From Conexibacter sp. CPCC 205762 (GTDB lineage Bacteria > Actinomycetota > Thermoleophilia > Solirubrobacterales > Solirubrobacteraceae), in contig NZ_JAUTDN010000002.1 in NCBI RefSeq assembly GCF_030646155.1, positions 62,001-126,000 of the forward strand: DNA of 64,000 nt. The letters run 5' to 3'. Shown here one piece after another: positions 6,875 through 28,142 of the stretch (the stretch's first letter is position 1; the number at the start of each line of letters is the position of its first letter). The translations under genes and the position numbers were made by a program. The notes below the pieces were generated by a model, which did no database searches, was not told where the DNA came from, and was given only the letters and a program-made list of their open reading frames with translations.

Positions 6875-8025
6875 GCGGCAACTCCGGTCTTGGCGAGCGC
6901 GACGACCTTCTCGGCCGCCTCGTTCATCGTCGTCGCGGTCGCGACGTTCGGCAGGTTCGCGTCGGCCAGCAGCTTGCGCCCCTCGACGTCGTTGGTGCCG
7001 TCGAGGCGGACGACGAACGGCACGGTCGGGTTGATGATCCCGTACGCCTCGATCAGGCCCTTCGCGACCTCGTCGCAGCGCGTGATGCCGCCGAAGATGT
7101 TGAAGAGGACCGCTCTGACCTTCGGGTCGGAGAGGATCACCTCGACGGCGCTGACGATCGCGTCGGACTTCGAGCCGCCGCCGGCGTCGAGGAAGTTCGC
7201 GGCCGAGCCGCCGGCGAGGCCGACGACGTCGAGCGTCGACATCACGAGCCCGGCGCCGTTGCCGAGGATGCCGATGTCGCCGTCGAGCTTCACGTACGTG
7301 AGGCCGCGCTCGTGCGCCATCTGCTCCTGCGGGTCCTCGGCGGAGGGATCGCGCAGCTCCGCGTTCTGCGGATGCCGGTAGAGCGAGTTGCCGTCGAGCG
7401 TGACCTTCGCGTCGAGCGCGACGACGTCGCGGTCCGCCGTGATGATCAGCGGGTTGACCTCGATCAGCATCGCCTCTTCGGCGACGAAGGTCGCGTACAG
7501 CTTCGACAGCATCGCGCCCACGGGGCGGATCAGGTCGGCCGGGATGCCGGCGGCGAACGCCAGCTTGCGGCCGTGGAAGTCCTGGAAGCCGAGCAGCGGA
7601 TCGACGTGCAGTCTCGCGAGCGCCTCCGGCGTCTTCTCCGCGACCTCCTCGATGTCCATGCCGCCCTGAGTCGAGAGCATGACGAGGGGCGCCTTGGCGG
7701 CGCGGTCGAAGACGATCGAGGCGTAGTACTCCTCCGCGATCTGCGAAGCGCCCTCGATCCAGACCTCATGGACCGTGAAGCCCTTGATGTCCATCCCGAG
7801 GATGTCGGTGGCGTACTGCGTCGCCTCCGCTCTGTCCTTCGCGAGCTTGACGCCGCCGGCCTTGCCGCGGCCACCGATCAGCACTTGCGCCTTGACGACG
7901 CAGGGGTATCCAATTTCATCAGCTGCCGCGACGGCGTCTTCAACCGTCTTGGCAGGCTTCCCGGTGGGGACCGGGATTCCATGTCGGGCGAAAAGTTGCT
8001 TGCCCTGATATTCGAGCAGGTCCAT
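6871..8025 (-). CDS. sucC: Succinyl-CoA synthetase beta subunit
   Basis: A 384-residue nucleotide-binding subunit of succinyl-CoA synthetase. It starts '[18 protein letters not shown]' and carries the ATP-grasp fold ([17 protein letters not shown]), 'IEVNPL' and the '[14 protein letters not shown]' succinate/CoA-contact loop. First gene of the sucC-sucD operon. Near this mutase/carboxylase-rich region it would also take the succinyl-CoA made from methylmalonyl-CoA. A TAGAGT 11 bases upstream is a weaker promoter candidate than those elsewhere in the window. Confidence 0.97.
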
Positions 8026-8094
8026 AGCGCCCGCGGACTCTACTCCGCATTAGCAGAATGGGCCCCCAGAACGCGCGAATAGGCCGCGAGCAGG

Positions 8095-9608: not shown

Positions 9609-10478
9609 TCAGGCGGCCCGCACGGCCGCGTTGCGGCGGTGCATCGCGCGCGCGAAGAGGCCGCCGCTGAGGAACATGATCGCGCCGTAGGCGGCCGCCG
9701 GCACCGACAGCTCGGTCGCGAGCGTGCTGCCGACGGCGATCGCGAGCGTCGCGTTGTGGATCCCCAGCTCGAGCGCGATCGCGGTCGCCTGGCGGTCGTC
9801 GAGGCCGGCGAGCTTGGAGACGGCGAAGCTGATCGCCAGCGCGGTCACGTTGAGCACGACGACGGCGCCGAGGATCGCGCCCGCGTGCTCGAGCACGACG
9901 TCGTGCTCGGAGGCGACCGCGCCGATGACGACGAGCAGGAAGAGGCCGGCGGCAAAGCGCCCGATCAACGGGCGGGCGGCGGCGACACGCCGCGGCCAGC
10001 GCTCCCGCACCGCCATCCCGACGGCGACGGGGACGATCGTCAGCAGCAGCACGCGCGCGACGATCGAGCCCATCGCGAGGTCGCCGACGAGCGCGCCGGC
10101 GTCGAAGTGGTCGGAGGCGAGGCCGAGGTAGGCGGGGACGGTGATCGCGGCCGCGACGCTGCTGACGGCCGTCATCGTCAGCGACAGGGCGGTGTCGCCG
10201 CGCGCGAGGTGGGTGAGGACGTTGGCCATCGTGCCGCCCGGCGAGGCGCCGAGCAGGACGAGGCCGACCGCCAGCCCGGCCGGCAGGTCGAACAGCGTCG
10301 CGACGCCGAACGCGAGCGCCGGCGAGACGACGACGAGGTTCACCAGCCCGATCGCGACGCCGCGCGGCTGGCGCACGACGCGGCGGAAGTCGGCGAGCGT
10401 CAGCTCCAGCCCGAGCGCGATCATGATCGTCGCCAGCGCGGCGGGCAGCAGCACGGAGGTCGTCAGCGTCGGCTCCAC
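9609..10478 (-). CDS. BASS-family (bile acid:sodium symporter-like) transporter
   Basis: A 289-residue integral membrane protein with about nine or ten hydrophobic helices. Family signatures are 'LGASPGGTMANVLTHLARGD' (a discontinuous helix with the Na-binding region) and 'ALELGIHNATLAIAV', both typical of the bacterial BASS/NTCP branch. It would take up an organic anion with sodium; substrate unknown. GTG start at 10478 is set by TAGCCT 6 bases upstream. Confidence 0.85.
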   Translation of the reverse strand: MEPTLTTSVLLPAALATIMIALGLELTLADFRRVVRQPRGVAIGLVNLVVVSPALAFGVATLFDLPAGLAVGLVLLGASPGGTMANVLTHLARGDTALSLTMTAVSSVAAAITVPAYLGLASDHFDAGALVGDLAMGSIVARVLLLTIVPVAVGMAVRERWPRRVAAARPLIGRFAAGLFLLVVIGAVASEHDVVLEHAGAILGAVVVLNVTALAISFAVSKLAGLDDRQATAIALELGIHNATLAIAVGSTLATELSVPAAAYGAIMFLSGGLFARAMHRRNAAVRAA

Positions 10479-11033: not shown

Positions 11034-12824
11034 TCAGGCCGCGTCCGGCGATCTGATGACGGCGATCGTGTCGCCGGCGGAGATCGCGGCGCCCTCGACG
11101 ATCGGGATCTCGGCGATCACGCCGGCCTTGTGCGCCGTGATCTCGTTCTCCATCTTCATCGCCTCGATGATGCAGAGCAGCTGGCCCTCCGCGACCGTGT
11201 CGCCCTGCTTCACCTTGACTCTCCACATGTTGCCCTGCATCGGCGAGGGCAGCGTGTCGGCGCCGCCGCCGGCACCGCCGCTCTTGCGCTCGCGCCGCGG
11301 TCTCTTGCCGCCGGCCGCGGCGGGCCCGGACCCGTTGACGGCCACGACCGCCCCGCCGATCGGCGCGGCGCCGATCACGTTGACGTCGAAGCGGCGGCCG
11401 GAGACCTCGACCGTGTAGGTCCGCTCGACCTTCGGGTCGTCCTCGTCATCCGTGGGGACAGGGGGCGGGAAGGCGAGCGTTCTGAGCCACTTGCGGTCCT
11501 CGACGAGGTCGCGGCAGGTCTCCGCGTTGGCCCACTGCTCGGTCGCGAGGATCGCCGAGTGGAACGGCATCAGCGTCTTCAGCTCGGTGATCTCGTACTC
11601 CGACAGCGCGCGCAGCATCCGTCTCGTCGCCTGCTCGCGGTCGGCGTCCCAGACGATCAGCTTGGCGACCATCGGGTCGTACATCGGCGAGACCTCACCG
11701 CCCGGGCCGACGCCCGAGTCGACGCGCACGCCGGGGCCCGACGGCTCCTTGTAGTCGCCGATTCTGCCCGGGGCGGGGGCGAAGTTGCGCGAGGCGTCCT
11801 CGGCGTTGATGCGGCACTCGATCGCGTGGCCGCGCAGGACGACGTCGTCCTGCGTCAGCGAGAGCGGCTCGCCGGCGGCGGCGCGGATGCCCTCCTTGAC
11901 GATGTCGACGCCCGTCACCATCTCGGTCACGCAGTGCTCGACCTGGACGCGCGTGTTCATCTCGAGGAAGAAGTACTCGCCGTCCTGCAGCAGGCCCTCG
12001 ATCGTGCCGGCGCCGACGTAGTGGACGGCGGCGGCCGCGTCGGTCGCGATCTTGCCGATCTTCGCGCGCAGCTCGGCGTCGACGGCGGGCGCCGGCGCCT
12101 CCTCGATCAGCTTCTGGTGGCGGCGCTGGATCGAGCAGTCGCGCTCGCCGAGGTGGATCACGTTGCCGTGACGGTCGGCCAGCACCTGCACCTCGACGTG
12201 GCGCGGATCGGGCAGGTAGCGCTCGAGGTAGACGGTCGGGTCGGAGAAGAACTTCTCGCCCTCGCGCGAGGCGCCCTCGAAGGCGCCCTCCAGCTCGTCG
12301 TCGGTCAGCGCGACGCGGAAGCCCTTGCCACCGCCGCCGCCGGCCGCCTTGACCGCGACCGGGTAGCCGATCGTTCTCTCGATGATCTTGCGCGCCGCTC
12401 TGACGTCCTTGACCGGCTCGGTCGTGCCCGGCACGATCGGCACGCCGGCCTTCTGCATCAGCTCGCGCGCGGCCGTCTTGCTGCCCATCGCGTCGATCGC
12501 CGCGGCGGGCGGGCCGATGAAGGTGACGCCGGCCTCCTCGCAGGCGGCGGCGAAGCCGGCGTTCTCGGCCAGGAAGCCGTAGCCGGGGTGGATCGCCTCC
12601 GCGCCCGAGCGCTTGGCGACCTCGAGGATCTTGTCGACTCTGAGGTACGACTCGGCCGCCGGGCCGGGGCCGATCAGATACGCCTCGTCGGCGCGCTTGA
12701 CGTGGAGGGCGTCGCGGTCGAGCTCGCTGTAGACGGCGACCGAGGCGATGCCCATCTCCTCGCAGGCGCGGATCACACGGACGGCGATCTCGCCGCGATT
12801 GGCGATCAGAATCTTCGAGAACAC
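11034..12824 (-). CDS. accA: Acetyl/propionyl-CoA carboxylase alpha chain (biotin carboxylase + BCCP)
   Basis: A 596-residue chain that carboxylates its own biotin with ATP and bicarbonate for transfer to acetyl- or propionyl-CoA by the beta subunit. The biotin carboxylase domain runs from 'FSKILIANRGEIAVRVIRA' through the glycine loop 'KAAGGGGGKGF' and 'EMNTRVQVEH'. After an Ala/Gly/Pro linker (about 490-525) comes the biotinyl domain with biotin lysine 557 in 'EAMKMEN'. Actinobacterial alpha chains have this same two-domain form. GTG start chosen because it gives the canonical N-terminus and TAACCT lies 8 bases upstream. Partner beta and epsilon chains are at 31303 and 30053. The symbol varies between genomes (accA3/accBC). 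Confidence 0.95.
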   Translation of the reverse strand: MFSKILIANRGEIAVRVIRACEEMGIASVAVYSELDRDALHVKRADEAYLIGPGPAAESYLRVDKILEVAKRSGAEAIHPGYGFLAENAGFAAACEEAGVTFIGPPAAAIDAMGSKTAARELMQKAGVPIVPGTTEPVKDVRAARKIIERTIGYPVAVKAAGGGGGKGFRVALTDDELEGAFEGASREGEKFFSDPTVYLERYLPDPRHVEVQVLADRHGNVIHLGERDCSIQRRHQKLIEEAPAPAVDAELRAKIGKIATDAAAAVHYVGAGTIEGLLQDGEYFFLEMNTRVQVEHCVTEMVTGVDIVKEGIRAAAGEPLSLTQDDVVLRGHAIECRINAEDASRNFAPAPGRIGDYKEPSGPGVRVDSGVGPGGEVSPMYDPMVAKLIVWDADREQATRRMLRALSEYEITELKTLMPFHSAILATEQWANAETCRDLVEDRKWLRTLAFPPPVPTDDEDDPKVERTYTVEVSGRRFDVNVIGAAPIGGAVVAVNGSGPAAAGGKRPRRERKSGGAGGGADTLPSPMQGNMWRVKVKQGDTVAEGQLLCIIEAMKMENEITAHKAGVIAEIPIVEGAAISAGDTIAVIRSPDAA

Positions 12825-12832
12825 GCGGCGGA

Positions 12833-12838
12833 AGGTTA
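12833..12838 (-). promoter_or_regulatory. -10 hexamer TAACCT for the carboxylase alpha gene
   Basis: TAACCT, minus strand, 8 bases before the GTG at 12824. It is also close to the left boundary of the low-GC insertion. Confidence 0.45.
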
Positions 12839-12979
12839 GTGGGTGAGCGTTTAAAACCGCCCCGATCGAACTTCGGCCTACGAGACAACGGTGTAGCGGT
12901 TCAAGCGGCGCGCGGCGCGGTCGATGATGCGGGCAGTGGAACCTGCCACTCAGAGAGTGTTTACCATCTTCTCCGAGCA

Positions 12980-14449
12980 ATGCTGACGAAGCTCGAGATC
13001 GAGGGTCTGAAGGCGTTCGCCGACCGCACAAGCGTCGAGCTCGCGCCGATAACCCTGGTGTTCGGTGACAACTCTGCCGGCAAGTCCTCGCTCCTGCAGT
13101 CTCTCCTGGTCGCGCAGCAAACGATTTGTTCAGCGAGAGACGGCAGGCTCCGAACGTCGGGGCACGACTTCGACCTGGGCGGCTTCACGAACTTGGTCCA
13201 CGCCCATGACTGCGATCGGCTGCTGGTGATCGGTTGCACCGTCACAGGAGGCCGAGACTTCCGGGACGAATCCACTAGCCATAGCATCGTGATGAACTTC
13301 CGAGCCGGGGACCACTCGACGGCTGATGTCGACGAACTGAGACTCTCCTGGCACGGCGGCAGAACGACGACCGGACTGGTGTTTCGACCGATTGAGGCGC
13401 GTCGCTCCGAGAGAGAACGACAGTACGACGTCGGCAACGGGGACTGGTCGCCAGAGCTGTTGGAATGGCTGAAGGTCGTCCTTGGACCGCGGCTGGCTGG
13501 GAGACAGCGAGCAGCCGCGTCAGCGGCGTGGCGAACGTGTCGCGAGGCCGCAATCGCGGTGGCGCGCCTCGACGAGACTGCGGAGGAATGGGACGGCTTC
13601 ACGGAGCAAGAGATCGAGAGGGCGCTCGGTCTGATCCGGCCGCGGTTCTCTGCCCAGAGCGGCAGTTGGCTGCCTCGCGGCGTGACTGCCGATTCGCTTC
13701 CGCGTGGTTCGGAGGCGACGGCCGTGGCGGCGGTCGTGGCTGCGCTCGAAGCTGTGATCGGGCAGGCTCACGAGCGGTTGCAAGACGAGCTCGGTCGCGT
13801 TGTCCATCTCGGGCCCGCGCGCGAGATTCCGCAGCGGGTGACATTGCTTCGCGATGCCTCCCCGGAGATCGGCCGGCTCGTCCACGACGCGGCGCTGCTC
13901 GATCGAGTCAACAAGTATCTGAGACATCTCGAGATCCCGTACGACCTCGTGCCAGCCCTGCTCGGCAGAGGAGATGCTCTGCTTGAGGACGCGATAGCGC
14001 TCCGTCTGATCGATCATCGGTATCAGACAGCGCTCACCGTCAACTTGCGCGACGTCGGAGTCGGCATCTCGCAACTGCTGCCGGTCGTCGTGTCAGCGGT
14101 GACGAATCCGTTTGGGGCCGTGTTTATCGAGCAGCCGGAGCTGCACGTCCACCCTGGACTCCAAGCCAAGCTCGGGGACGTGCTCGTCTCGGAGAGCGCC
14201 ACAACGCAGTTCGTCGTCGAGACGCATTCCGAGCATTTGATGCTGCGGCTTTTGCGCTATGTGCGAACCGGCCGGATCAGCGCCGACGACATCGCGGTCC
14301 TCTATGTGCACCACAACGAACACGGTGCAGGCGCGAGCGTTCGTCGAATCGAGATCGACGACGCTGGTGAGTTCGTCCAGCGATGGCCGGGCGGATTCTT
14401 CACTGAGCGAGAGACCGAGTTGTTCGCCGGCGAAGCACCGTTCGCATGA
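12980..14449 (+). CDS. DUF3696-type AAA ATPase (OLD/RecF-like fold)
   Basis: A 489-residue ABC/RecF-like ATPase. Start set at 'MLTKLEIEGLKAFADRT', the canonical beginning, not at upstream in-frame ATG 12839. Walker A is GDNSAGKS at 29-36. The ABC-signature-like 'DVGVGISQLLPVVV' precedes Walker B 'VFIEQPELHVHP' (Glu384/Glu387) and the switch 'ETHSEH' (His416). The tail, 'IEIDDAGEFVQRWPGGFF', matches the C-terminal DUF3696 block. No TOPRIM nuclease domain is seen, so the effector is probably a partner. Such ATPases are often sensors or motors in anti-phage systems. It overlaps the next gene by ATGA. Base composition is much lower in GC than the flanks. Confidence 0.85.
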   Translation: MLTKLEIEGLKAFADRTSVELAPITLVFGDNSAGKSSLLQSLLVAQQTICSARDGRLRTSGHDFDLGGFTNLVHAHDCDRLLVIGCTVTGGRDFRDESTSHSIVMNFRAGDHSTADVDELRLSWHGGRTTTGLVFRPIEARRSERERQYDVGNGDWSPELLEWLKVVLGPRLAGRQRAAASAAWRTCREAAIAVARLDETAEEWDGFTEQEIERALGLIRPRFSAQSGSWLPRGVTADSLPRGSEATAVAAVVAALEAVIGQAHERLQDELGRVVHLGPAREIPQRVTLLRDASPEIGRLVHDAALLDRVNKYLRHLEIPYDLVPALLGRGDALLEDAIALRLIDHRYQTALTVNLRDVGVGISQLLPVVVSAVTNPFGAVFIEQPELHVHPGLQAKLGDVLVSESATTQFVVETHSEHLMLRLLRYVRTGRISADDIAVLYVHHNEHGAGASVRRIEIDDAGEFVQRWPGGFFTERETELFAGEAPFA

Positions 14450-15459
14450 GAGTCACGCGGGTTGTCATCTGCGGCAACGCCGCAACCGAGACGGTGCAGA
14501 CTGCGACGAGCATCGGGGACCGGGCACGAGCATTGCGGAAGCGGATCGATGAAAAGGGTCTGGGACTGTTCGCGAACCTCGACGAGCGAGGAAAGTTCCT
14601 GAACTCGCTTTCACCAGTCGAGCGACAGCGCTGGGTCAGCCTGGTCGTGGACCGGCGACTGGTGCACAGTCTCGATGGCGTCAGAGGCGTCTTCGAGCAC
14701 GCGACGGTCGACGATCTGCGAATGACGTACGCCGACCTCGCCGATGTCGTCGTGTGCAGCGAGCAACAAGAGCAGAGCCTGATGCAAGAACGCGGACAGG
14801 CTGACAACAGAAGGCCGGAGGTCACGTCACTCGAGACGGTTGCGAGTGCCTCGGCGTTCGACCACGACGCAGTCCGATCGACAGTCGCGGCTGGTGAGAC
14901 ACGTGACGCTGTGTTCGACGAGCGGATCAGACCGTTCGCGCCATGGATCGAGAGACTGGTAATCCTCGACCGGTACGCGCTGACGGCTGTCGAGAAACCG
15001 TACGATCCCGAGGACGGCTTCAAGTGGCTCCTGCGGCGCTTGCGTGAAGAACGCCGCACTCAAGACCCGTTGAAGCTGGTGCTCACAATGGCCGTGAAAC
15101 GAAGCGAGATCGACGCGGCCACGGTGGCCTACGTGATTGAACGCTTCGGCCTGCGGCATCCTGATCCCGAATTGTTCAAGTCGATTGCGTTGAACGTCGT
15201 GAACGAAGACACCGGCCAACGTCATTTGCACGATCGGTTCTTCCGTTTCGATGGCCGTGTGCTCGACTGTGGAACGGGCCTGGCCGTCTTCGGGCAATCA
15301 CAGGTCTTTCAGCGCACGAGACTCTCGATCGGCAGTTACGCCGAGTCGGAAGAGACGCTTGACCTGGTCGAGCTGGAACCGACCACCGGCGCGGCGTCAT
15401 GGCGCCGCAACCAGCAGTTGTGGCTCGCGAGAGACCGATCTCCCATCGACTTCGACTGA
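14446..15459 (+). CDS. Island protein with a possible MIT_C/PLD-like C-terminal domain
   Basis: A 337-residue soluble protein I do not recognise as a named family. Residues 1-130 are mixed alpha/beta ('[10 protein letters not shown]' start). The second half holds '[13 protein letters not shown]' (about residue 168), '[12 protein letters not shown]', then 'LHDRFFRF' with His262-Asp263-Arg264 and 'CGTGLAVFG'. That order (aspartate-tyrosine strand, HDR, Gly-rich strand) reminds me of the phospholipase-D-like C-terminal domain of MITD1; this is an inference from motif memory. ATGA overlap with the ATPase upstream and a 2-base gap to the large gene downstream show one operon. Low GC like its neighbours. 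Confidence 0.6.
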
Positions 15460-15461
15460 GC

Positions 15462-18400
15462 ATGGGCGACTTCGGCGAAGACGACTCGACGATTGGCAAC
15501 GCGCTCGCGCGCCCGTGCGAGCTGACTCCGACTTCGGTGAAGGACGTTGTCGCAGCGGTCTGGACGATCTTCTTGAGTGGCAGAAAACAAGAGGGGAGAA
15601 ACGCAAGCTCGCTCGGCACCCGTCTCTTGAGGATCAACTCGTTCGTCGGCATGACGCTGACGCTCCCGCAGGACGCGCAAACGACCGACAGCGCGCTCGC
15701 CTTCGTTCGGCACGGAGCGGTAGGCGCCGCTGCCGAAGCGTTGCTGGCGCTCAAGAGCCATGATCCTCAGGCCAAACACAGAATGGCGAGTGTCAGAGAT
15801 ACGCTCCGATTCCGGTTGCGCCAGGCGGGGCAGGCACCAGCGGAGAACTGGGGCGAGTTGCTTATGCTCGGGCGTGCGGTGGCGATCCACACGAGCGTCG
15901 CGACAAGGCTTGAGAGCAAGCACCGCGATAGACGCGGTGGGTCCAGAGCACTTATGGAGGTGTTCTGGAAGATCGCGGTGACGAGCGGGACACTCGCGCT
16001 GCGAGCGGGCCAGGGTCCTCACAGCGAGATGCCGGCGGGCGCAGGTGTCGCGAGTTTGGAGAAGACTGACGAGCCTCGCGATCACGGGGCGGAGCTGATC
16101 CGCCTCCGTGAATGCGCTGAGCAACTCAGCAAGGGGTTAGAGACGGCTTCCGCGGCATTGAGAACTGACGGTCTGCCGCCGGCCGCTGATCTCATCGAGT
16201 CCCTCGTGCGGTACGGGGCCGATGTCGAGGCCCTTGCTGCAGCGCTTGAGACCGCATCAGATCTGAGCGCGATCAGAGCCGCGCTCGCGCAGCGCGATCC
16301 ACGAGTTCGCGCACTTAGAGCGTTGGCGAGTCTCAGGACGGTCGGCGACCAGCTCCTGCCGGATGCTGACGTTCTGCGTGACAGCGCGCGTCATGCGCTC
16401 GCTCGACTCTCCGAAGGCGTTCAGGTCGAGGAACTGGATGCGCTGCTCTGGATGCATGATTGGATCGGCAGCTACCACCACGGGTTCGAGGCCTTCGACT
16501 CCGACGTTCTGATGGCAGCGTTGCTTGCCGCGGGAATCGGTACGCGGCTCGCGACAGCACCGACGATCGACAAACTCCGTCTCGGTGCGACCAGCGGCGA
16601 GGCGCTGGCACCGGTGATGATCGCAGCCAGTGAGGAGTCAGAACTTCCGCCGGAACCTGAGCCGGAGCCGGAACCTGAGCCGAAGCCGGAGCCTGAACCG
16701 AGGCCCGAGCCCGATCCAGAATCGAAGTCGGAGCCAACGCCGGCGGCCGAACGGGAGCCGGGTGAGGCCGAGCGGGAATCGGCAGAGACGCCGGTTCCCG
16801 AACCGCTGCCGGAAGTGACGGTGGATCCAGCGCTCACGCTTGAACGGGAGCCGGGGGAACCTGTAACGGAATCGGCACCGGTATCCGAACCCGAGCACGA
16901 ACCAGAACCTGAGCACGAACCCGCGTCCGAGTTCGGAGAGCGGATCTCGCAGCGGCTTCCTCCTGAGATTGGGACCGCCGCGCTCGTCAGTCGGGGACTG
17001 GCTGGCGTAGCGGCGGCCGAACTCCCCCCTTCGCCCCGGCGGACAGCACTCGAGCTGCTCGGGCTCGCGGCAAGCGCGCGGTCTCCTCACGGTCCCTGTG
17101 CTGGTCAGCTCTCCCGCACGATCGGCGAGCTCCACGAGAAGCTCGAACAAGAAGAAACGCAGCTGATCGCCGTCAGCGCGGCCATCAGCTGCGCGGTCGT
17201 TGCGCCGAGTGGATGGATTCAGGAGCTGTTCGGCGAAGCGGCGCCCGCGATGCAGGATCGCGCCGGTCTGCGCGCGATCAGCGAGGTGCTGCACGACTCG
17301 GCGCAGCGGCACTTCATCGTTCCGCACGGCGACGACCGGCCGGTGAGAGGCGAGTCGCCTGGAGTGCTTCAGCGCAGACTTGATGCGCTGGCAATCGACG
17401 CGCGTCGGTGGTTGGACAAGCCGGGCAAGACACAGTTCGAGCGCGCTACACGCCTCTGGCAACGCTGGGTCGACGAGCGTTCCGGGCGGCTGGGGCGGAT
17501 GCTCGCGCGCGTGATCGAGAATCGTCCGTCGGAGATAGCGGCGATGCAACCGGAGGTGCGAGACCTCCGTGCGAATCTGCTCAGAACACTTGACGACGAC
17601 GACGCAAAGCTGCGCGGCTCCGGTTCGAGCCGTCTCGAAGGGCGAGCGCGGCGAGAACTGGTTCGACGTACTGAAGAGATCCTGCAGCTCGTCGACGACG
17701 CGATCGTCGCGTCGCACGCACTGCTCGAATTCGAGCAAGACACCCGCACTGAGAACCCAGGCGGGGCAGCGACGCTCGACGCCATCCTCGATGTTCTGAC
17801 CGCACACCTCAAGGCAGCGAAGGAAGAGGTCGCCCAACTCGACAGAGCTGGCAAGGTGGTGGCCGCTGCCAGCCTCAGGTTCGCGCTCGATCGTCTTCAG
17901 CAGCTTGTGGTCAAGCGCGAGCTCGACCTCTCCGATCGCGAGCCTCCGTTCGAGGAAGCGCTGCGAGGCACTCTGCTCGCCTTTGACGTGGAACTCGATG
18001 AGGACCTCGAGCTGATCCGACGCCCGCTCAGCGAGAGAACGCGCGCACAGATCCTGGAGCAGCCGCCGATCTGGCGACAGGCATGGAGACTGCGTCGGGC
18101 GAGAGGCGAGGTGTTGCACGCTCGGCGAATCCGTCGCATCCTCGTGGAGGTCGAGATGCGAGATCCTCAGAGGCTCGACAACGAGCTTCAGCAGACAGAG
18201 CGCAGAGTGCGCCGCGAGCTGGAGGACGAGACGGAACAGCTGCGCACAGAGATCGACCGTGACTGGCGCATGGGACACCTGGCGCCGTCCGTTTGCGCTC
18301 TGCTGTTGCAGCGGCTCGATCGCATCGCGGTCCAGATCGACCAGCCGGACGCGCTGTTGCTGCGGGCGCTCGACGGTCTGCGCGATGACGCCCGGACGGA

Positions 18401-21400
18401 GGCGCGAGAACATGTCGCTGACAGGACCGCCCTGCTTCTGAAGGAACTTGCCGCGGCCGGCTGCGAGCAGGAATTGACCGAAGCGGTTGAGCGGCTCCTT
18501 GAGGGGGGGGACATCACGAGCGCGGAAGACGCGCTCGCTCAGATCCGGCGAGGAGAAAGACCGAGCCTCAAAGCCCAGAGAGACCACCTGGATGAGCTGC
18601 GGAGATTCCTGGAAACCGCCGACCTGCTCGCGAAGGAGAACCTCACGGCGAAACGTGTACAAGCAGCTGTTCGTGGCGACCAGCAGCTCACCACGCTCGA
18701 CTTCGAGGCTGTTCGGGAAGCTGGCCACGAGCGCGCCGTGTCGCGCGTGGTCGAACGCTGGTTCTCGCTCGACGAAGAACGAAACGCGCGCGCCGACCGT
18801 CGCGGCGAGTTGCGGGAACACATCAATGCGATCTTGGAGCTGCTCGGCTTCCAAGTTACGGAGATCGGGTATGGCACGAGCGAGGTGCGCTCTAACCAGC
18901 CCTCGGTTGAGTTCGAGGTTCGCACCAAACCGAAAGGTCGGTCGTACGCCCCGCAGTTCGGCAGCGAAGGCACGGTCTTGCGGACCGTGCTGCTGCGCTC
19001 AAGAACGACCGATGTCGTCACCGCTGCCGGCAAAACGACGGAGTTGGCGTGCATCGTGCTCATCCCGCGCGTGCTGACCTCGACGCAGCGACGGCGAATC
19101 GCGACGCTTCAGCGCAACAGCCCGACCGCCAGCCCGGTGCTGGTCATCGATACCGCGGTGTTTCTGCACGCTTGTGCTCATGGTTCACTCGGGCTTGCGC
19201 CGACGATGCGAGTTGCGCTGCCGTTCACCGCAGTGAATCCATATACTCCCTTCCGGGCCGGGTCGGTGCCGACCGAGATGTTCTACGGGCGCCAGCAGGA
19301 AGTTAAGGATCTGCTCGACCCTGATGGCTGCTCGATCGTCTACGGCGGGCGCCGGCTCGGCAAGTCGGCGCTGCTTTACGAGGCCGTACGACGCGCAGAG
19401 CAGTCTGATGACGAGATCGCCGCGATCGTCGTCGACCTGAAGGGCGTAGGGATCGGCGAACGCAATCCGCCGTCGGCGCTGTTGCCGTTCCTGACCGAGC
19501 AGCTCAGCGCACGCCTCGATACTCGAGTCAGAGAGGCGCGGCTCGGCGATTTCGAACGCCTGCAGACGCTCGTCGGGCAGTGGCTCGCGTGTGATGAGCG
19601 ACGACGCATCGTGGTCCTGATGGACGAGACCGACGCGTTTCTTCAGGCAGACGCGGCGGTAAACTTCGAGACGACGAACCACCTCTCGGCGCTTCAAGAA
19701 AACAACTCACGTCGGTTCAAGGTCGTTTTCGCGGGGCTGCATCACGTCAAGCGGTTCAACGACGTCCCGAACCAGCGTCTCACGCACTTCGGTGGCAAGG
19801 TCGCGGTCGGCCCGCTGCCGATCGCGGATGCGCTGCGCCTCGTCCAAGAACCGTTTGCGGCGCTCGGCTTCGGCTTTGAGCCTCCTGAAGCAGTACACCG
19901 CATCCTGACGGAGACGCGTAACCACCCTTCGCTGATCCAGCTTGTCTGCCACAACCTCATGCGCCACGTCCTCGCGGGCAGACCTCAGGAGCTCGAGCCG
20001 CCGTACCGGATCACTCGCGAGGATGTGGAAGCGGTCATGTCGCGTCCGGCGCTGGTGACGGAGATGCGCGAGCGGATGGAGCTCACGCTCAATCTCGACC
20101 CGCGATATCGCGTCATCCTGCTCGTGATCGCACTGCAACTCCTTGAACGGACGGTTGAGCGACCGCTGCGCTCAGATGAGATCCGGAGACTCTGCACAGA
20201 GTGGTGGCCGGTCGGGTTCGCCGAAACCGGTGACTACGAGTTTGACGCGCTGCTTGAGGAGATGCGCGAGTTTGGCGTTTTGTATCGCGACATCAACACC
20301 GATGCTCACCGCCTGCAAAGTCCGAGCGTCGGACGTTTGCTCGGCACGTTCGAGAGCATCCAAGAGGCGTTGCTCAGCACCCATCAACTCAGCCCTCCGG
20401 TGCGTTTCAACGCGAACGCGTACCGCGAGCAGTTGCAGCACGACGGCGACACGTCGAAGGGGTCGGTGAGACGGAGCCCGCTCACGGTGGCGCAGGTGGG
20501 GGAGCTTGCCAGACACAGGGAGAGCCGGGTCGTCGTCGTTCTCGGGACCGCTGCGACTCAGGTGGCGAATGTCAACGATGCGCTGCATCTCGGCGGTCTC
20601 AAGCGACAGCTCGGAGCCTTCGGAGAGGCCAGGCGAACGGTCAAGCCGATAGCCGAAGCAGGGCCTGACGCGCGCGCATCCCGCGACTCCTACATCAACT
20701 CGGTTCGCACCCCGAGAGGCAACACGCACAAGTTGGTGGTGCTGACGCGGGATCCGCGGTCCGAGGACCTCGACACACTCATCGACGCCAGCGTCCATGC
20801 CATCGACACACTCGGCGGCAAGCGGACGAGCGGGACGGTCTGCGCCGTCATCGTGAGTCCGGCGACAGCAAGTGCTGTCCGGAGCCTGATCGGGGAGGAC
20901 GAACGAGCTGTCGTTCGCCCATTCACCGTACTCAGGATGGAGCGCTGGGATCCGGCTGGCCTGCGTGCCTGGGCCTACGACGACGAGCTCGCCTTCGCAA
21001 CCGACCGCTGGCTGGGCGAACTGCTGGCCACAACGGGTGGATGGCCGGCTCTGATCGAGCGGCTGGGGGCCGGCGAACTCCGCTCCAGCGCTGCACTCTC
21101 CAGCGCCCTCCGCGACGAACGCGAGCGGCTTGAGACAAGAGACGGCGCCTCGGAGCTGCTTGAGGCCGTCGGACTGACGGACCCTGAAAGCTTGGAGGGG
21201 CGCGCCTGGGACGGGATGTTGCGATACGGCGAGCCGGTGCCGCTCACGCGCAGCATCGTCACGGACGTGAGCGCACTCAGCGAGCTGACCGATGCGTACG
21301 CCGCACGTATCGCCTACGAGACGTTGCGCGCGAAAGACGTGCTCGTGGTCGACAAGCCGTCGCGCTCGATCTCACCCGAACCGACTGTCGCTGCTGCTTG

Positions 21401-21419
21401 GCGGCGAGTGTTCGGCTGA
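15462..21419 (+). CDS. Giant P-loop NTPase of the island (1985 residues)
   Basis: Largest gene in the window. Start set at 15462 (MGDFGEDD), 2 bases after the preceding stop; an earlier in-frame ATG (15399) lies inside the upstream gene. Residues 1-390 are mostly helical. About 396-487 is a Glu-Pro-rich linker. About 490-1230 is Arg/Glu/Leu-rich and helical, with likely coiled coils. At 'NPYTPFRAG' and 'FYGRQQE' (near 1260) an AAA/STAND/Orc1-like NTPase begins: Walker A GGRRLGKS (1295-1302) and Walker B VVLMDETD (1384-1391). A winged-helix-like part and a second alpha/beta region ('[11 protein letters not shown]', '[15 protein letters not shown]') follow to the end. No nuclease motif or membrane helix is recognised. 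Probably the sensor/scaffold of the three-gene system. It overlaps the convergent PAP2 gene by 48 bases. Confidence 0.75.
16647..16922 (+). repeat. Glu-Pro dipeptide low-complexity tract in the giant NTPase
   Basis: DNA built from GAG/GAA-CCG/CCT codon pairs, giving runs such as [18 protein letters not shown] and later [10 protein letters not shown] (about residues 396-487 of the protein). Synonymous codons vary between units, so the tract is kept at protein level and is not a recent perfect DNA repeat. It should form an extended, stiff, acidic linker between two helical regions. Confidence 0.85.
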
Positions 21420-22382
21420 GGCTTGCTGCCGGGCGCCCTGATCGCGACGGCGCGCGTGCCAGCGCGTCCAGGCCCAGCGGACGCCGAAGTACGCGGCGAC
21501 AGCGTAGATCCAGCCCAGCAACAGGTCCGCAACGTAGTGCTCGCCGCCCCAGACGAGCGCGAATCCCATCACGAGCGGGTAGGCGACCAGCAGCGTCCGC
21601 AGGTACCACCGCCGGGCGCTCCCCCACAGCTCCAGGCAGATCAGCAGCGAGAAGGCGGCGTGCAGCGACGGCACGGCGGCGACGTCGTTGGCGTACTCGT
21701 AGCCGGTCCCGACGAGGCCGAATCTGGCGCCGATCCCGAGCTGGCCCCAGATCTGCGGGATCGCCCGCTCGACGTGCGGGATCAGGCCCTGCTCGGCCGC
21801 CATCCACGGCGGCGCGGCGGGGTAGAGCGCGTAGGTCGCGAAGCCGGCCAGCGACAGCACCGCGACCGTGATCGCGTAGCGGCGGAAGCGCTGCCGGTCG
21901 AGCTTCCACAGGATCGCCGCCAGCAGCGGCGTCGCGAAGAAGTGGGACATGTAGACGACCCACGCGACGATCCCGTACCAGGGCAGCGTGCCGGGGGTGT
22001 AGAGGCGCTCCTGCAGCCAGGTCGTCGGCACCTGGCCGCCGAAGAGGAATCTGTCGACGTCGATCTGCGGCAGGAAGAACGGCTCGAAGAAGAGGCCGTC
22101 GGCGGCGCCGCGGGCGAGGTCGTAGCCGGCCAGCACGAGGAAGAACGGCAGCCAGTCGATCAGCGCGCCCTTGAACCAGCCTCTGAGGTCGCCGAACGAG
22201 AAGGCGAGCAGCCCGAGCAGGATCCACAGCAGGATCCAGTCGCGCGTCAGCGGCAGCCCCTCGGCGGCGACGAACCAGACCGTCGCCGCCAGCCACACGA
22301 GCGGCGGCAGCAGCCGCAGCGCCCGCCTCGGTCGCGTGAGCGACGATCCGATCGCGGGCCTGCGGCTGGTACTCGATTCCAT
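21372..22382 (-). CDS. PAP2-superfamily membrane phosphatase (inositolphosphotransferase-like)
   Basis: A 336-residue integral membrane protein with about six to eight helices. The PAP2 active-site motifs are visible as '[11 protein letters not shown]' (catalytic His) and '[13 protein letters not shown]' (second His with the Asp of H-x3-D). The layout is that of the Aur1/Ipt1-like branch, which moves or removes phospho-head groups from lipids at the membrane surface. The last residues (about 16) are encoded inside the 3' end of the low-GC island gene, so the C-terminal tail may have been altered by the insertion. ATG 22382 is supported by TATCGT 6 bases upstream. Confidence 0.88.
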
Positions 22383-23748: not shown

Positions 23749-24653
23749 TAGAAGTAGCCCTCTCGCTTGCGGTCTTCCATCGCGGCCTCGGTCGCGCGGT
23801 CGTCCGCGCGCGTCTGGCCTCGTTCGGTGATGTTGGTCGCCGCGATCTCCGCGACGACCGTCTCCAGCGTGGTGGCGGTCGAGGTGACGGCACCGGTGCA
23901 GCTGATGTCGCCGACGGTCCGGTAGCGGACCATCTCGGTGAAGACGTCTTCGCCCTCCATCCGCTCCATGAAGTCGAAGGCGGCGTAGAGCATCCCGTCG
24001 CGTCTGAAGACCTCGCGCTCGTGCGCGAAGTAGATCGACGGCAGCTCGAGTCTCTCGCGCTCGATGTACTGCCAGACGTCGAGCTCGGTCCAGTTCGAGA
24101 TCGGGAAGACGCGCACGTGCTCGCCCTTGCGGACGCGGCCGTTGTAGAGCTGCCACAGCTCCGGGCGCTGCGCCTTCGGGTCCCACTGGCCGAAGTCGTC
24201 GCGGAAGGAGAAGATCCGCTCCTTCGCGCGGGCGCGCTCCTCGTCGCGGCGGGCGCCGCCGAAGGCCGCGTCGAACTGGTGCTCCTCGATCGCGTCGAGC
24301 AGCGTGACCGTCTGGAGGCGGTTGCGGGAGGCGCGCGGGCCTCTCTCCTCGACGACGCGACCCTTGTCGATCGACTCCTGCACGGAGGCGACGATCAGCC
24401 GCTCGCCGATCTCGGCGATGCGGCGGTCGCGGTACTCGATCACCTCGGGGAAGTTGTGACCGGTGTCGACGTGCATCACCGGGAACGGGAACCTCGCCGG
24501 GCGGAACGCCTTCTCAGCCAGTCGCAGCAGGACGATCGAGTCCTTGCCGCCGGAGAAGAGCAGCACGGGCCGCTCGAGCTCGGCGGCGACCTCGCGCATG
24601 ATGTGGATCGCCTCGGCCTCGAGCGCGTCCAGATGTGAGAGCTCGTACGTCAT
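23748..24653 (-). CDS. cysD: Sulfate adenylyltransferase small subunit
   Basis: A 301-residue PP-loop ATP pyrophosphatase; it makes APS from sulfate and ATP together with CysN. PP-loop SGGKDS at 34-39, then 'VMHVDTGHNFPE' and 'FGGARRDEERARAKERIFSF', all standard. Ends with the usual 'DRKREGYF'. Overlaps tauE by ATGA upstream and cysN downstream, so all three are translationally coupled. Confidence 0.97.
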   Translation of the reverse strand: MTYELSHLDALEAEAIHIMREVAAELERPVLLFSGGKDSIVLLRLAEKAFRPARFPFPVMHVDTGHNFPEVIEYRDRRIAEIGERLIVASVQESIDKGRVVEERGPRASRNRLQTVTLLDAIEEHQFDAAFGGARRDEERARAKERIFSFRDDFGQWDPKAQRPELWQLYNGRVRKGEHVRVFPISNWTELDVWQYIERERLELPSIYFAHEREVFRRDGMLYAAFDFMERMEGEDVFTEMVRYRTVGDISCTGAVTSTATTLETVVAEIAATNITERGQTRADDRATEAAMEDRKREGYF

Positions 24654-25585
24654 GCCTGTTCCGTTGCGGTGGGTGGGTCGGTCTTGGGGAGGATGTCTGC
24701 GCTGCGTATGCGGCGCTGTCTGCCGCGGTGCAGCCCGTAGGCGGCGACGGCGACCAGAAGCGGCACGATGAAGATGACAGAGACGGGATAGTCAGCGACA
24801 CCGGCCTTCTTCAAGAGTGCCATGCCGGCGGCGAGGAGGACTATCCCGAGCGTCGGCCGCAGCGCGTTCTCGGGCAGCTTGAACGCGAGGTTCGAGCCGA
24901 TCCAGACGCCGGGGAGCGAGCCGATCAGGATGTTGCCGGCGAGCGCCAGGTCGACGTTGCCGCTGAGCAGGTGCGCGATCGAGGCGACCCACAGCAGCAG
25001 CGCCGCGTGGAAGACGTCGGTGCCGACGACGCGCAGCGGCGTCAGACGGAAGACCAGGATCAGCGCGACGGCGATCAGCGCGCCGCTGCCGGCCGAGGTG
25101 AGGCCGAGCACGAAGCCGACCGAGATGCCGACGAGGATCGCCGCGACCTTGTGGCGCGTGTCGAATCTCTCGATCGTGACGCGCTCGCCGCCGCTGCTCA
25201 TGAACAGCGCGCGGGCGAGCACGGCGATGCCGGTGACGAACAGCGCGCCGGCGACGGCGGTCAGCAGGAAGGTGTCGAACGAGTCGCCGCCGAGCGCCTT
25301 CTCCAGCATGTGCAGCACCTGCACCCCGCCGAGCGCGCCGGGGATCGAGCCGACCGCGAGCCACAGCGCGATCGTCATGTCGACCGAGCCGCGGCGCCAG
25401 TGGCGCCAGCCGCCGACGGTCTTGGTGACGGCGGCGTAGGCGAGGTCGGTGCCGATCGCAGTCGTCGGCGCGGTGCCGAGCACGAGGATCAGCAGCGGCG
25501 TCATCAGCGAGCCGCCGCCGATGCCGGTCATGCCGACGAGCATCCCGACGCCGAAGCCGAAGGCGATGACGAGAGGCCAGTCCAC
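24650..25585 (-). CDS. TauE/SafE-family sulfite/sulfate permease
   Basis: A 311-residue membrane protein with about eight helices. 'FGVGMLVGMTGIGGGSLMTPLL' (motif in two parts here) at the N-terminus and the second-half repeat 'GFVLGLTSAGSGALIAVAL' are TauE/SafE hallmarks. Its place between cysH and cysD, overlapping cysD by ATGA, suggests it moves sulfate in, or sulfite out, as the comparable permease of the Corynebacterium cys cluster is thought to do. GTG start at 25585. The C-terminus has a short basic cytoplasmic tail. Confidence 0.88.
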   Translation of the reverse strand: MDWPLVIAFGFGVGMLVGMTGIGGGSLMTPLLILVLGTAPTTAIGTDLAYAAVTKTVGGWRHWRRGSVDMTIALWLAVGSIPGALGGVQVLHMLEKALGGDSFDTFLLTAVAGALFVTGIAVLARALFMSSGGERVTIERFDTRHKVAAILVGISVGFVLGLTSAGSGALIAVALILVFRLTPLRVVGTDVFHAALLLWVASIAHLLSGNVDLALAGNILIGSLPGVWIGSNLAFKLPENALRPTLGIVLLAAGMALLKKAGVADYPVSVIFIVPLLVAVAAYGLHRGRQRRIRSADILPKTDPPTATEQA

Positions 25586-25608
25586 GGCGTCAGTCTTTCA
25601 CCATTTCG

Positions 25609-25623
25609 GTCGGAATACCCGAC
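25609..25623 (-). promoter_or_regulatory. Short dyad between cysH and tauE
   Basis: GTCGG-AATAC-CCGAC in the 42-base gap. The half AATACCCGACT resembles the half-site of Rrf2-family regulators (IscR/CymR type). Could be an internal operator or a small hairpin setting cysH/tauE stoichiometry. Confidence 0.3.
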
Positions 25624-25627
25624 TGAT

Positions 25628-26302
25628 TCAACCGTGAAGGCCGCACTCGACCTTGTCGTTCCCCGCCCAGCGGCCGCTGCGGTCGGCGGCGGGCACCGTG
25701 CAGTGGGTGCAGCCGATCGACGCGTAGCCGCGGTCGTGCAGCGGGTTGTACGGCAGGTCGTGCTCGTGGATGTAGCGCCAGATGTCTCTCTCGCTCCAGT
25801 CGGCGAGCGGTGCGGCCTTCCAGATTCCCTGCTTCTCGTCCCAGCTGATCTTGGGCGTGTTGGCGCGGGTCGGCGCCTGGTCGCGGCGCACGCCGACGAT
25901 CCATGCGTCAACTTCGCTCAACGCCTGTCTGAGCGGGACGACCTTGCGGATGCCGCAGCACTTGTCGGGCGCGCTCTTCCACAGCTCGGGCCCGTGCTGC
26001 GCCTCCTGCTCGGCGAGGCTCATGCCCCGCCACGCCTCGAACTCGACGCCGTAGCGCGCTTCCATCTTTCTCCACGTCTCATAGGTCTCGGGGAAGAGAA
26101 CACCGGTGTCGAGCGTGAAGATGCGGGCCTCGGGCTCGATTCTCAGTAAGAGATCGATGAGAACCGACTCCTCCTGCTGAAACGAGCAGGCGAGATAGAG
26201 GCGCGGGTGGAAGCGCTCCACCATCCGCGCGACCACCTCCGCGGCCGTGAGCGACTCCGCGTCGGCGGTCAGCGAGTTGTCGATCGGAGCGGTCGCACTC
26301 AT
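25628..26302 (-). CDS. cysH: Adenosine 5'-phosphosulfate (APS) reductase, assimilatory
   Basis: A 224-residue enzyme that reduces APS to sulfite with thioredoxin. It has the PP-loop-derived 'ACSFQQEESVL' and the four iron-sulfur cysteines of the APS-specific branch (Cys115-Cys116 in 'DKCCGIRK', Cys198 and Cys201 in 'GCTHC'); PAPS-specific enzymes lack these. The catalytic Cys220 is in the C-terminal 'ECGLH'. The absence of an APS kinase domain in CysN agrees. First gene of the cys operon; its promoter region contains a long dyad (26311-26347). Confidence 0.94.
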   Translation of the reverse strand: MSATAPIDNSLTADAESLTAAEVVARMVERFHPRLYLACSFQQEESVLIDLLLRIEPEARIFTLDTGVLFPETYETWRKMEARYGVEFEAWRGMSLAEQEAQHGPELWKSAPDKCCGIRKVVPLRQALSEVDAWIVGVRRDQAPTRANTPKISWDEKQGIWKAAPLADWSERDIWRYIHEHDLPYNPLHDRGYASIGCTHCTVPAADRSGRWAGNDKVECGLHG

Positions 26303-26310
26303 GGTCGACG

Positions 26311-26347
26311 TAAATTAGCAGAAACCCGATGGGGTTTCGGGAATTTA
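26311..26347 (-). promoter_or_regulatory. Nested dyad operator upstream of cysH
   Basis: Two nested inverted repeats with one centre: outer TAAATT (26311-26316) / AATTTA (26342-26347) and inner GAAACCC (26321-26327) / GGGTTTC (26332-26338). The outer left arm overlaps a TAATTT -10-like hexamer 9 bases before the cysH ATG, so a bound repressor would block transcription. AT-rich for this genome. A related AAACCCC/GGGGTTT element stands before sirA. Confidence 0.5.
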
Positions 26348-26449
26348 GACCATTGCGGTCAACAAAGCGACCCCTCCGCGGTTGCCTTCCCCCACCTGCT
26401 TCCGGCATGCTGGACGGAAAGGGGACAGACCGCGGAATCGGGGGATTCG

Positions 26450-27478
26450 ATGGGGTTGAAGATCGCGTTCATCGCGCGCACGGGAACGCCCAACGCCTAC
26501 TACCGCGCCGTCGGGCCGCTGATGGCGCTGACGGCTCGGGGGCACGGGCTCGCCCAGGTGATGGGGGAAGGTCAGCCGCCGAACCACGGCGCTCTCGCCG
26601 AGTGCGACCTGCTGCTCGTCCATCGCTTCAGTGAGGGCGACCCGTTGACGGCGATGCGGACGGTGCACGAGCGGGGCGTGCCGGTCGTGTGGGACAACGA
26701 CGACGACGTCGTCGCGCCGCAGCGGGCGTCGGGCGCCGGCAGAAGACGCTGGAACGCGGTCGAGCGCCAGCGCCTGGTCGGCTCGATCCGGCGCGTGCAC
26801 AGACTTGCGAGCGTCGTGACCACGCCGAGCGCCCAGCTTGCCGAGGGCTACCGCGAAGACGGCGCGCGCAACGTCCACGTGATCGAGAACTACCTGCCGT
26901 CGCAGTTCGTGCTCGCGCGCCGGCCGCAGCGCGCCGACGACACCGTCACGATCGGTTGGACCGCCGCCTTCGAGCACGAGGTCGACGCTCGCGAGCTGAG
27001 ACTGCCGCAGTTGCTGAGAAGACTGATGGAGGCCCACCCGCAGGTGCGGGTCGCCTCGCTCGGCGTCGACCTCGGTCTGCCGCGCGATCGCTACAGACGC
27101 TCCAGACCGCTGCCGTTCGACCAGGTCGCGCCATGGGCGGCGAGCTTCGACATCGGGATCGCGCCGCTGACTGACATACGCCTCAACCGCGCCCGCTCGA
27201 ACATCAAGCTGAAGGAGTACGCCGGAGCCGGGACGCCGTGGGTCGCCTCGGCGGTCGGGCCGTACGTCGGCCTCGGCGAGCGCCAGGGCGGCCTGCTGAT
27301 CGACAACGACCGCTGGTACGAGACGCTCGAACGGCTCGTGCTCGACGCCGGTCAGCGACGCCGGCTGGGCGAACAGGGCCTCGCCTGGGCGCGCACGCAG
27401 ACGATCGAGACGAACGCCGCCGTCTGGGAGCGGCTGCTGACCGGGCTCGTCTCCGAGGCGGCGGCGCTGCGCCGCTGA
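26450..27478 (+). CDS. Glycosyltransferase, GT-B fold (GT4-like)
   Basis: A 342-residue cytoplasmic transferase. It begins 'MGLKIAFIARTGTPNAYYR' and shows 'WDNDDDVV', 'VIENYLP', 'IGWTAAFEHEVD' and the donor-binding 'NIKLKEYAGAGTPWVAS' with the Glu and Gly residues used to hold a nucleotide-sugar. This set is typical of GT-B enzymes acting on surface glycans. ATG 26450 is preferred; the longer frame would run back into the cysH promoter. It converges on the HAD gene with a 7-base gap. No link to sulfur genes beyond position. Confidence 0.75.
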   Translation: MGLKIAFIARTGTPNAYYRAVGPLMALTARGHGLAQVMGEGQPPNHGALAECDLLLVHRFSEGDPLTAMRTVHERGVPVVWDNDDDVVAPQRASGAGRRRWNAVERQRLVGSIRRVHRLASVVTTPSAQLAEGYREDGARNVHVIENYLPSQFVLARRPQRADDTVTIGWTAAFEHEVDARELRLPQLLRRLMEAHPQVRVASLGVDLGLPRDRYRRSRPLPFDQVAPWAASFDIGIAPLTDIRLNRARSNIKLKEYAGAGTPWVASAVGPYVGLGERQGGLLIDNDRWYETLERLVLDAGQRRRLGEQGLAWARTQTIETNAAVWERLLTGLVSEAAALRR

Positions 27479-27485
27479 GACGGCT

Positions 27486-28142
27486 TCAGCGGCGAGAGGC
27501 CGAGACCAGGCGCGGCAGTTCGGCCATCGCGTCGAATGGCTCGGCGCCCTCGTCGCGCAGCAGTGCGGCGGGGGTGCGGGCGCTGTAGCCGAGCACGCGC
27601 ATGCCGGCGGCGCGGCCGGCCTTGACGCCGGCGGGGCTGTCCTCGACGACGACCGTCGCGGCCGGCTCGAAGCCCATCCGCTCGGCGGCGTGGTGGAAGA
27701 GGTCGGGCCACGGCTTGCCGCGGCCGACGTCGTCGGCGGAGAAGATGCGCGCGTCCGGGAAGCGGTCGGTCAGGCCGGCGGCGGCGAGGCCGCGGCGGAT
27801 CCGCTCGTGGTCGCCGCTGGAGGCGAGGCAGTAAGGGATGGCGGCGGCGTCGAGGCCGTCGAGCGCCTCGGCTATCCCTGGGATCGCCGGCGCCTCGCCG
27901 GCGGCGTAGGCGGCGAACAGCGCCGCGCGGTAGTCGTCGCGCAGCGTCGCCGGCGGCGGTGCGCCGAGCCGCTCGGTCACGACCTCGACCATGTGGCCCC
28001 ACGACCGCCCCATGAACTCCCGCACCGAGTCGTCGGTGCTGGTCGGCAGGCCGATCGCCGTCAGGCCCTCCGCGAGGACCCGGTTGGCGACCGGCTCAGA
28101 ATCGACGAGGACGCCGTCGCAATCGAAGATGACCGCGGTCAC
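27486..28142 (-). CDS. HAD-IA phosphatase (beta-phosphoglucomutase/Gph-like)
   Basis: A 218-residue HAD phosphatase. Motif I 'AVIFDCDGVLVDSEPVAN' (Asp nucleophile and acid/base Asp), motif II 'CLASSGDHERI', Lys in 'GKPWPDLF' and motif IV 'VVEDSPAGVKAG'. Acts on a small sugar phosphate or similar. The GTG at 28142 makes a TAGTG overlap with the sirA stop; a GTG 12 bases earlier (28154) is an alternative. It would be co-transcribed with sirA. Confidence 0.85.
   Translation of the reverse strand: MTAVIFDCDGVLVDSEPVANRVLAEGLTAIGLPTSTDDSVREFMGRSWGHMVEVVTERLGAPPPATLRDDYRAALFAAYAAGEAPAIPGIAEALDGLDAAAIPYCLASSGDHERIRRGLAAAGLTDRFPDARIFSADDVGRGKPWPDLFHHAAERMGFEPAATVVVEDSPAGVKAGRAAGMRVLGYSARTPAALLRDEGAEPFDAMAELPRLVSASRR

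Follow-up and report, generated by a model that had tools for sequence, protein, structure and literature searches.

The PARIS system works through an OLD-ABC ATPase that recognises a phage protein and switches on a TOPRIM effector; ATPases of this class are also found together with HNH, PD-(D/E)XK and PIN nucleases (PMC12839542, PMC10568477). The components of Menshen include a DUF262 protein and an OLD/TOPRIM nuclease (PMC10952713). The locus considered here is a block of three genes in a 64,000-nucleotide stretch of Conexibacter sp. CPCC 205762 (contig NZ_JAUTDN010000002.1, positions 62,001 to 126,000; hereafter the window, whose coordinates are used throughout). Gene 1 (P0001, 12980..14449, plus strand, 489 amino acids (aa)) encodes a predicted OLD-type ABC ATPase with a C-terminal DUF3696 region and without TOPRIM. 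Gene 2 (P0002, 14446..15459, plus strand, 337 aa) encodes an HDR-motif partner of the ATPase, the proposed effector, with a possible MIT_C/PLD-fold C-terminal domain, and gene 3 (P0003, 15462..21419, plus strand) a 1985-aa giant with a STAND/ORC-Cdc6 AAA+ module. The block joins two modules that are found apart elsewhere, which an earlier note on this DNA had not noticed. We read it, with modest confidence, as one horizontally acquired operon that encodes a composite and probably abortive anti-phage system.

The block is one acquired cassette. To its left lies a biotin carboxylase/acyl-CoA carboxylase alpha gene (11034..12839, minus strand), which is outside the system, and to its right a PAP2-type membrane gene (21372..22382, minus strand), both named by eye; the two genes adjoin in all three congeners examined (G591, G090 and G042, of six). 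The left-flank gene is 90-92% identical in these three, and the flanking gene order is common to them and the window for nine of the ten genes tested. Homology to the window ends on the left at 12866 (G591), 12845 (G090) or 12867 (G042) and restarts on the right at 21459, 21448 or 21444, respectively, with just 32, 42 or 16 bp between the two homology blocks at the empty site. Because these blocks nearly abut, the inserted DNA, which has no strand of its own, spans approximately 12867 to 21443-21458, the right end depending on the congener compared. Besides the three genes it contains a leader of some 110 bases (12868..12979, plus strand) that runs from the insertion edge to the first ATG and, from its sequence only, is the putative promoter region. 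The C-terminal tail of the PAP2 protein is now encoded by inserted DNA (21372-21419), tail-to-tail with gene 3, which it overlaps by 48 bp, and the congeners differ there. No integrase was found within the inserted stretch, nor any convincing terminal repeats or target-site duplication among those listed (20 of 48 direct families, 25 of 80 inverted pairs). The insertion between ordinary genes without an integrase that the earlier note described is thus borne out by the empty sites in three congeners.

Base composition agrees with acquisition as a unit. The earlier note was right that the block is lower in G+C (GC), and it overstated the contrast, which is 64.5% against 71.9% for the remainder of the window rather than 60% against 73%. 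GC at third codon positions (GC3) is 0.757, 0.745 and 0.751 in genes 1, 2 and 3, compared with a mean of 0.957 (standard deviation 0.023) in 24 comparison genes, hand-picked as likely real from the 42 other gene calls in the window. Two of those 42 calls fall below 0.75, at 7312-8082 (0.70) and 57221-57694 (0.64), and both were taken for spurious frames. The three reading frames are co-directional, with an ATGA overlap at the junction of genes 1 and 2 and a 2-base gap between genes 2 and 3, exactly as had been noted; alternative upstream starts, at 12839 for gene 1 and 15399 for gene 3, leave the N-terminal residues of both proteins uncertain. Of 201 genomes of the order, two have gene 2 or a relative, the one in G044 being distant; the core of the giant is matched in 8 of 232, where only the window's own match is a full-length giant and the other seven are weak (frames of 335-692 aa, E values between 4.9e-8 and 4.2e-4). 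This core has no match in the six remaining congeneric genomes, which include incomplete ones. A fixed housekeeping cluster is rejected on account of the empty congener sites and this rarity across the order.

The first gene is the one that ties the locus to described systems. In Pfam it matches AAA_21 (63.4 bits), AAA_15 (56.8 bits) and, barely above the cutoff of 22, DUF3696 (23.1 bits), and there is no Pfam line for TOPRIM in gene 1, 2 or 3, so that the DUF3696-type ATPase without a nuclease domain seen in the earlier reading stands. Among the best 25 of its 118 PADLOC families, PDC-M55A comes first (169.8 bits), with NsnB (156.6 bits, E 3.3e-46) and HEC-03B (133.3 bits) after it; AriA profiles score 62.2 and 59.7 bits, far under the other ATPase families. 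PADLOC's ATPase-TOPRIM models match gene 1 within ATPase stretches, and its PHROGs matches are mostly to unnamed families. These profile matches point to an OLD-type ABC ATPase as used by Menshen and, more distantly, by PARIS.

The comparison with Menshen that the earlier note had proposed holds for this gene only. Its ATPase subunit is alike, since the NsnB profile matches gene 1, albeit with a lower score than PDC-M55A, but the DUF262 and OLD/TOPRIM nuclease components given in PMC10952713 are absent from the trio. Pfam has no DUF262/GmrSD_N line for genes 1, 2 and 3, PADLOC gives no Nsn profile match for genes 2 and 3, and membership in Menshen is rejected for want of a DUF262 or TOPRIM partner. 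By eye, one plasmid locus does look like a Menshen operon: L011:8182-12152 (Nonomuraea) has an NsnB-like ATPase, a partner of about 300 residues and a DUF262-looking gene. The block resembles PARIS in that an OLD-type ABC ATPase with no nuclease domain of its own stands ahead of a small putative effector. It differs in that gene 2 has no TOPRIM profile match in the libraries searched, gene 1 is nearer to NsnB and PDC-M55A, and a giant STAND gene is added; with no TOPRIM effector AriB, membership in PARIS is likewise rejected.

The pairing of genes 1 and 2 recurs. Gene 2 is a 337-residue frame with an HDR motif, as the earlier note had it, and has no PADLOC or NCBIfam family at E 1; Pfam gives only SgrR_N at chance level (E 0.16), and PHROGs one weak match (E 0.0091). 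A protein of 298-337 residues stands directly after a gene 1 relative in five loci (L010, L012, L013, L014 and L034), among which the L034 partner is the only one reached from gene 2 by BLAST (E 9.5e-7). Residues D175, H262, R264 and G278 are invariant in six aligned partners, and their motif reads HDR in L014 and the window, HAR in L010, L012 and L013, and HSR in L034. Because of the same position and these four shared residues, at 14-24% identity, the partners in L010, L012, L013 and L014 are likely homologous to gene 2. Gene 1 matches 33 plasmid records, five of which were examined; four have the pair and the fifth is the Menshen-like L011. In L010 the pair lies after genes of type I restriction-modification (R-M) type and before SIR2 and HerA genes, in L012 it follows pieces of R-M-type genes, and in L014 it is near what by eye is an integrase-like frame. 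The PADLOC candidates PDC-M55 and HEC-03 resemble the locus through the gene 1 scores above, but their other models match neither gene 2 nor gene 3 at E 1, and do not match the partners in L010, L012 and L013 at E 0.1. Relatives of gene 2 were found neither in plasmids at E 0.01 nor, with confirmation, in viral contigs. The L010 partner as a query retrieved five records and the L014 partner only itself. Profile A2, built from gene 2 and its partners, matches 2 of 396 genomes of the phylum sample, the second weakly, and the match in G519 falls in a short frame.

The HDR motif had suggested that gene 2 might contain an MIT_C-like domain. Profile A5, made from the three closest proteins, finds in the PDB only two MITD1 sequences, 2ymb (E 0.0094 overall, with a best stretch of 0.13 across the HDR region) and 4a5z (0.13), and a PLD-type fold for gene 2 is plausible on this basis.

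Gene 3 is the 1985-residue protein with its own P-loop that had been described, with a Walker A motif GGRRLGKS and a Walker B motif VVLMDETD. Its N-terminal part and long middle are helical-looking by eye, with an acidic, Pro/Glu-rich hinge at about residues 391-490. An alpha/beta domain (about 1110-1240) is followed by the STAND/ORC-Cdc6 AAA+ module plus winged helix (about 1259-1645) and a variable C-terminus. The AAA+ and winged-helix core (19272..20390, plus strand), delimited in alignments of 16 relatives including the window's, matches the folds of ORC/Cdc6, CED-4, Apaf-1, plant NLRs and Avs3, and TnsC, MuB and BrxC chains are also among its matches. Foldseek gives Avs3 (8dgc) at E 9.3e-6 with low template modelling scores, for a model confined to residues beyond 1104. 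The protein carries an AAA+ P-loop core of the ORC/Cdc6-STAND clade with a winged helix. STAND proteins are signal ATPases, and in Avs proteins the domain order is effector, ATPase, sensor. At about 2000 aa and with one STAND AAA+ module, gene 3 is like Avs and other STAND NTPases, but its ATPase is near the C-terminus after a long part, and a nuclease domain was not seen in the giant. The strand order of the alpha/beta domain could fit a nuclease fold, in a model of low confidence there, and no conserved catalytic set was seen in residues 1110-1240. The sole PADLOC line for gene 3 is PDC-S01 (E 0.076), and none of the PADLOC, Pfam, NCBIfam and PHROGs copies consulted contains a model dedicated to the giant family. 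Judged by title and abstract opening, the literature matches listed describe neither the giant nor the trio, and no paper linking DUF3696 with defense was found in the literature search. When we call the giant family undescribed, we mean within these profile libraries and this literature, which was represented mostly by titles and abstract openings.

In the phylum sample of 396 genomes the core of the giant occurs in 10, of which 8, including the window's, have giants, and in the family of G223 it occurs in 42 of 345 genomes sampled, always in frames of at least 1377 aa. That family is probably Streptomycetaceae, since known Streptomyces loci group there in the giant tree. Plasmid records with relatives number 28 for gene 3, and profile A3 found five loci in viral contigs, of which L062-L064 are weak and were excluded. 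We compared the surroundings of 56 giant loci: 6 from the 28 plasmid records, 2 from genome contigs, 7 of the 9 in the phylum sample (two weak matches were left out), 2 of the 5 in viral contigs and 39 from the family sample. The stretches were about 12-27 kb, some ended by contig ends, with genes called by a simple script.

Of these 56 relatives, 50 show one or another of three partner types; the A3 family alignment opens with gene 3. A gene for a family of about 756 aa stands upstream in the same direction in 27 loci, with a DinG/DpdF-type helicase frame in view in 14 of the 27. At L003:337-14320 a 1963-aa helicase with RNase-T, DinG and DpdF-like parts comes first, then a 756-aa protein with no Pfam, PADLOC or PHROGs match, then the giant; this helicase/756/giant trio (L003, L002 and 25 further loci) is likely an undescribed three-gene actinobacterial system. 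A HEPN-like partner stands downstream of the giant in 22 loci, 16 of them by a 300 bp rule and 6 (L029, L097, L100, L101, L102 and L130) as long stop-to-stop frames that start inside the end of the giant. An RN/RD-xxx-H motif, counted by hand per locus, is kept in 21 of the 22, the exception being L122 (a looser script count gives 22 of 30 aligned pieces), and this partner is, on its motif, a probable RNase effector. The helicase is the only partner in one locus (L032), and six have no tested partner type (L005, L007, L030, L033, L109 and L129), the 'helicase' label in L109 being its own giant frame. A relationship of gene 2 to the HEPN or 756 partners, which has no profile-profile support, is rejected. 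At L033:3785-16514, an FHA-domain protein (1010 aa) and a RyR-domain protein weakly similar to kinases come before a distant giant (2283 aa), after which lies an unassigned protein of 427 aa.

In L009 and L061 the giant is fused behind a pPIWI-RE module and a HEPN-motif partner is next. Each fusion is one frame of about 3100 aa (L009:1224-16665 and L061:2774-13491), and L009 is preceded by REase/Y and Z-domain genes. These two relatives recall the three-gene pPIWI-RE systems, but the window is without a pPIWI-RE module or helicase of the kinds tested. The main text of the 2013 pPIWI-RE description does not mention AAA or ATPase (PMC3702460).

Partner type follows the giant's tree. In the AAA+ core tree the 756 label requires 3 changes (shuffled mean 19.4) and the HEPN label 5 (shuffled 17.7). 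A starred branch (98/96) separates the window's giant, all 22 HEPN-type giants and 5 others from the 27 giants of the 756 type and 2 others. The window giant is a lone long branch whose exact position is unsure; closest to it, at 41% identity, is the row of L027. The window is without HEPN, 756, helicase or pPIWI-RE partners of the kinds tested and, because genes 1 and 2 are missing from all 56 loci in the stretches examined, its operon is a third, rare giant pairing.

Defence-type genes recur around the giants. Their neighbours include RNase-T/DinG/DpdF-like helicases, PD-(D/E)XK and UvrD genes, a DUF3320 gene and cas2e/cas1e at one locus, and, under cutoff, a GmrSD-like gene. A giant and its HEPN-motif partner also occur in a viral contig (L060:6599-13131), where their neighbours are a DEAD helicase, an MrfA-type Zn-binding protein and, by eye, phage-tail-like genes. 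A non-defence role, as a mobile DNA-repair, conjugation-control or stress operon, would sit well with the plasmid-borne relatives of gene 3 (28 records) and of gene 1 (33 records), since plasmids may serve other roles. We consider it improbable, as defence-type neighbours recur around both the giant and the pair, the spread is sporadic, and one relative is near those tail-like genes. The clean insertion, the sporadic spread and the relatives in defence and mobile contexts support the earlier description of the block as acquired, non-housekeeping and defence-like.

The block could also be a direct restriction machine, with the giant acting as an ATPase loaded onto DNA in the manner of BrxC or ORC, and gene 2 cleaving incoming DNA as a PLD-type nuclease, with no cell suicide. 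The ORC/Cdc6, TnsC, MuB and BrxC fold matches would suit this, as would the giant relatives beside DinG/DpdF-type helicases and pPIWI-RE and the two records in which the pair comes after type I R-M-type genes. However, the fold cannot separate a DNA loader from a signalling STAND protein, the usual small partner on that side of the tree where the window's giant falls carries a HEPN motif, and the block has no methylase or helicase. Models of BREX, a system with a PglZ, PglX and BrxC set, appear neither among all PADLOC matches of genes 2 and 3 nor among the best 25 of 118 families for gene 1. We regard a restriction machine as unlikely; it is compatible with the composite operon on the point that the three genes form a single system.

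For the composite, probably abortive system we infer sensing, gating, gene 2 activity and phage defence as follows. The giant would receive an infection signal through its long N-terminal part, and its ORC/Cdc6-like AAA+ module would switch and oligomerise on ATP. The OLD-ABC scaffold of gene 1 may keep gene 2 inactive and then release it, as AriA does AriB in PARIS. Gene 2, probably with a PLD fold, would then attack either a phosphodiester, in nucleic acid, or the membrane.

A number of results weigh against this composite reading. The earlier note had looked to conservation of the trio for support, and the neighbourhood survey found no second trio: relatives of gene 1 or gene 2 are in 0 of the 56 other giant loci, in the stretches examined (blastp at 1e-3 on calls, tblastn at 1e-2 on DNA), and the pair stands without a giant in all five of its loci. 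With no giant locus carrying a gene 1 or 2 relative, the joint function of the three genes rests on one operon. The fold call for gene 2 is weak, coming from the three-sequence profile A5 with its best-stretch E of 0.13. The broader six-sequence profile A2 finds no MITD1 in the PDB, just PRMT1 chains at E values of at least 1.5; gene 2 alone does not find it, and its C-terminal half finds only unrelated chains (E 0.43 and 1.6). MIT_C is not among the Pfam matches of gene 2, and its single-sequence fold model is unusable (predicted local distance difference test score 35.5). For the HEPN-like partners, HEPN_Swt1 is under the Pfam cutoff (E 0.02-0.033) in three of the seven scanned (L006, L027 and L060), and there is no HEPN Pfam line in L028, L031, L061 or L009, which has AAA_33 instead. 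Gene 3 has no relatives in phage records, and single-protein queries with genes 1, 2 and 3 found nothing in viral contigs.

The main rival draws on some of these same counts. It holds that two independent systems, an OLD-ABC and HDR pair and a self-sufficient giant, were stacked in one transcript by chance. The pair occurs without a giant in L010, L012, L013, L014 and L034 (the L010 and L012 stretches end shortly after it), 6 of 56 giants are without any tested partner type, and none has the pair. On the other hand, the ATGA overlap, the 2-base gap, the matched GC3 and the single insertion indicate one unit, and the window giant is without the usual HEPN or 756 partners and stands on its lone long branch. 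We find chance stacking unlikely, if a serious alternative, and keep to the composite operon.

A wider interpretation is possible, and we offer it tentatively. The giants may be an undescribed family of ~2000-residue STAND hubs with interchangeable effector modules, namely a HEPN RNase, a helicase with the 756-aa protein, pPIWI-RE, and an OLD-ABC ATPase with a MIT_C/PLD-like effector. The window would contain the sole example seen of this last type, with one effector under the serial control of two ATPase switches. If true, one sensor-like giant is common to several defence designs that are now listed separately, and the operon shows exchange, with a complete two-gene OLD-ABC module replacing the usual effector. 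It would also allow a direct test of whether unrelated effectors can be driven by STAND hubs, and would bring in a family that lacks a dedicated model in the libraries searched, yet was found in 42 of the 345 genomes sampled from the G223 family.

Two features of the window lie outside the cassette. Of the ten flanking genes tested, only the one at 9609-10478, by eye a gene for a transporter-like membrane protein, finds no match in the syntenic stretches of G591, G090 and G042. Further to the right, 24650-29971 is a mostly minus-strand run that by eye is sulphur-assimilation-like, with TauE-like, CysH-like and sulphite-reductase-like genes.

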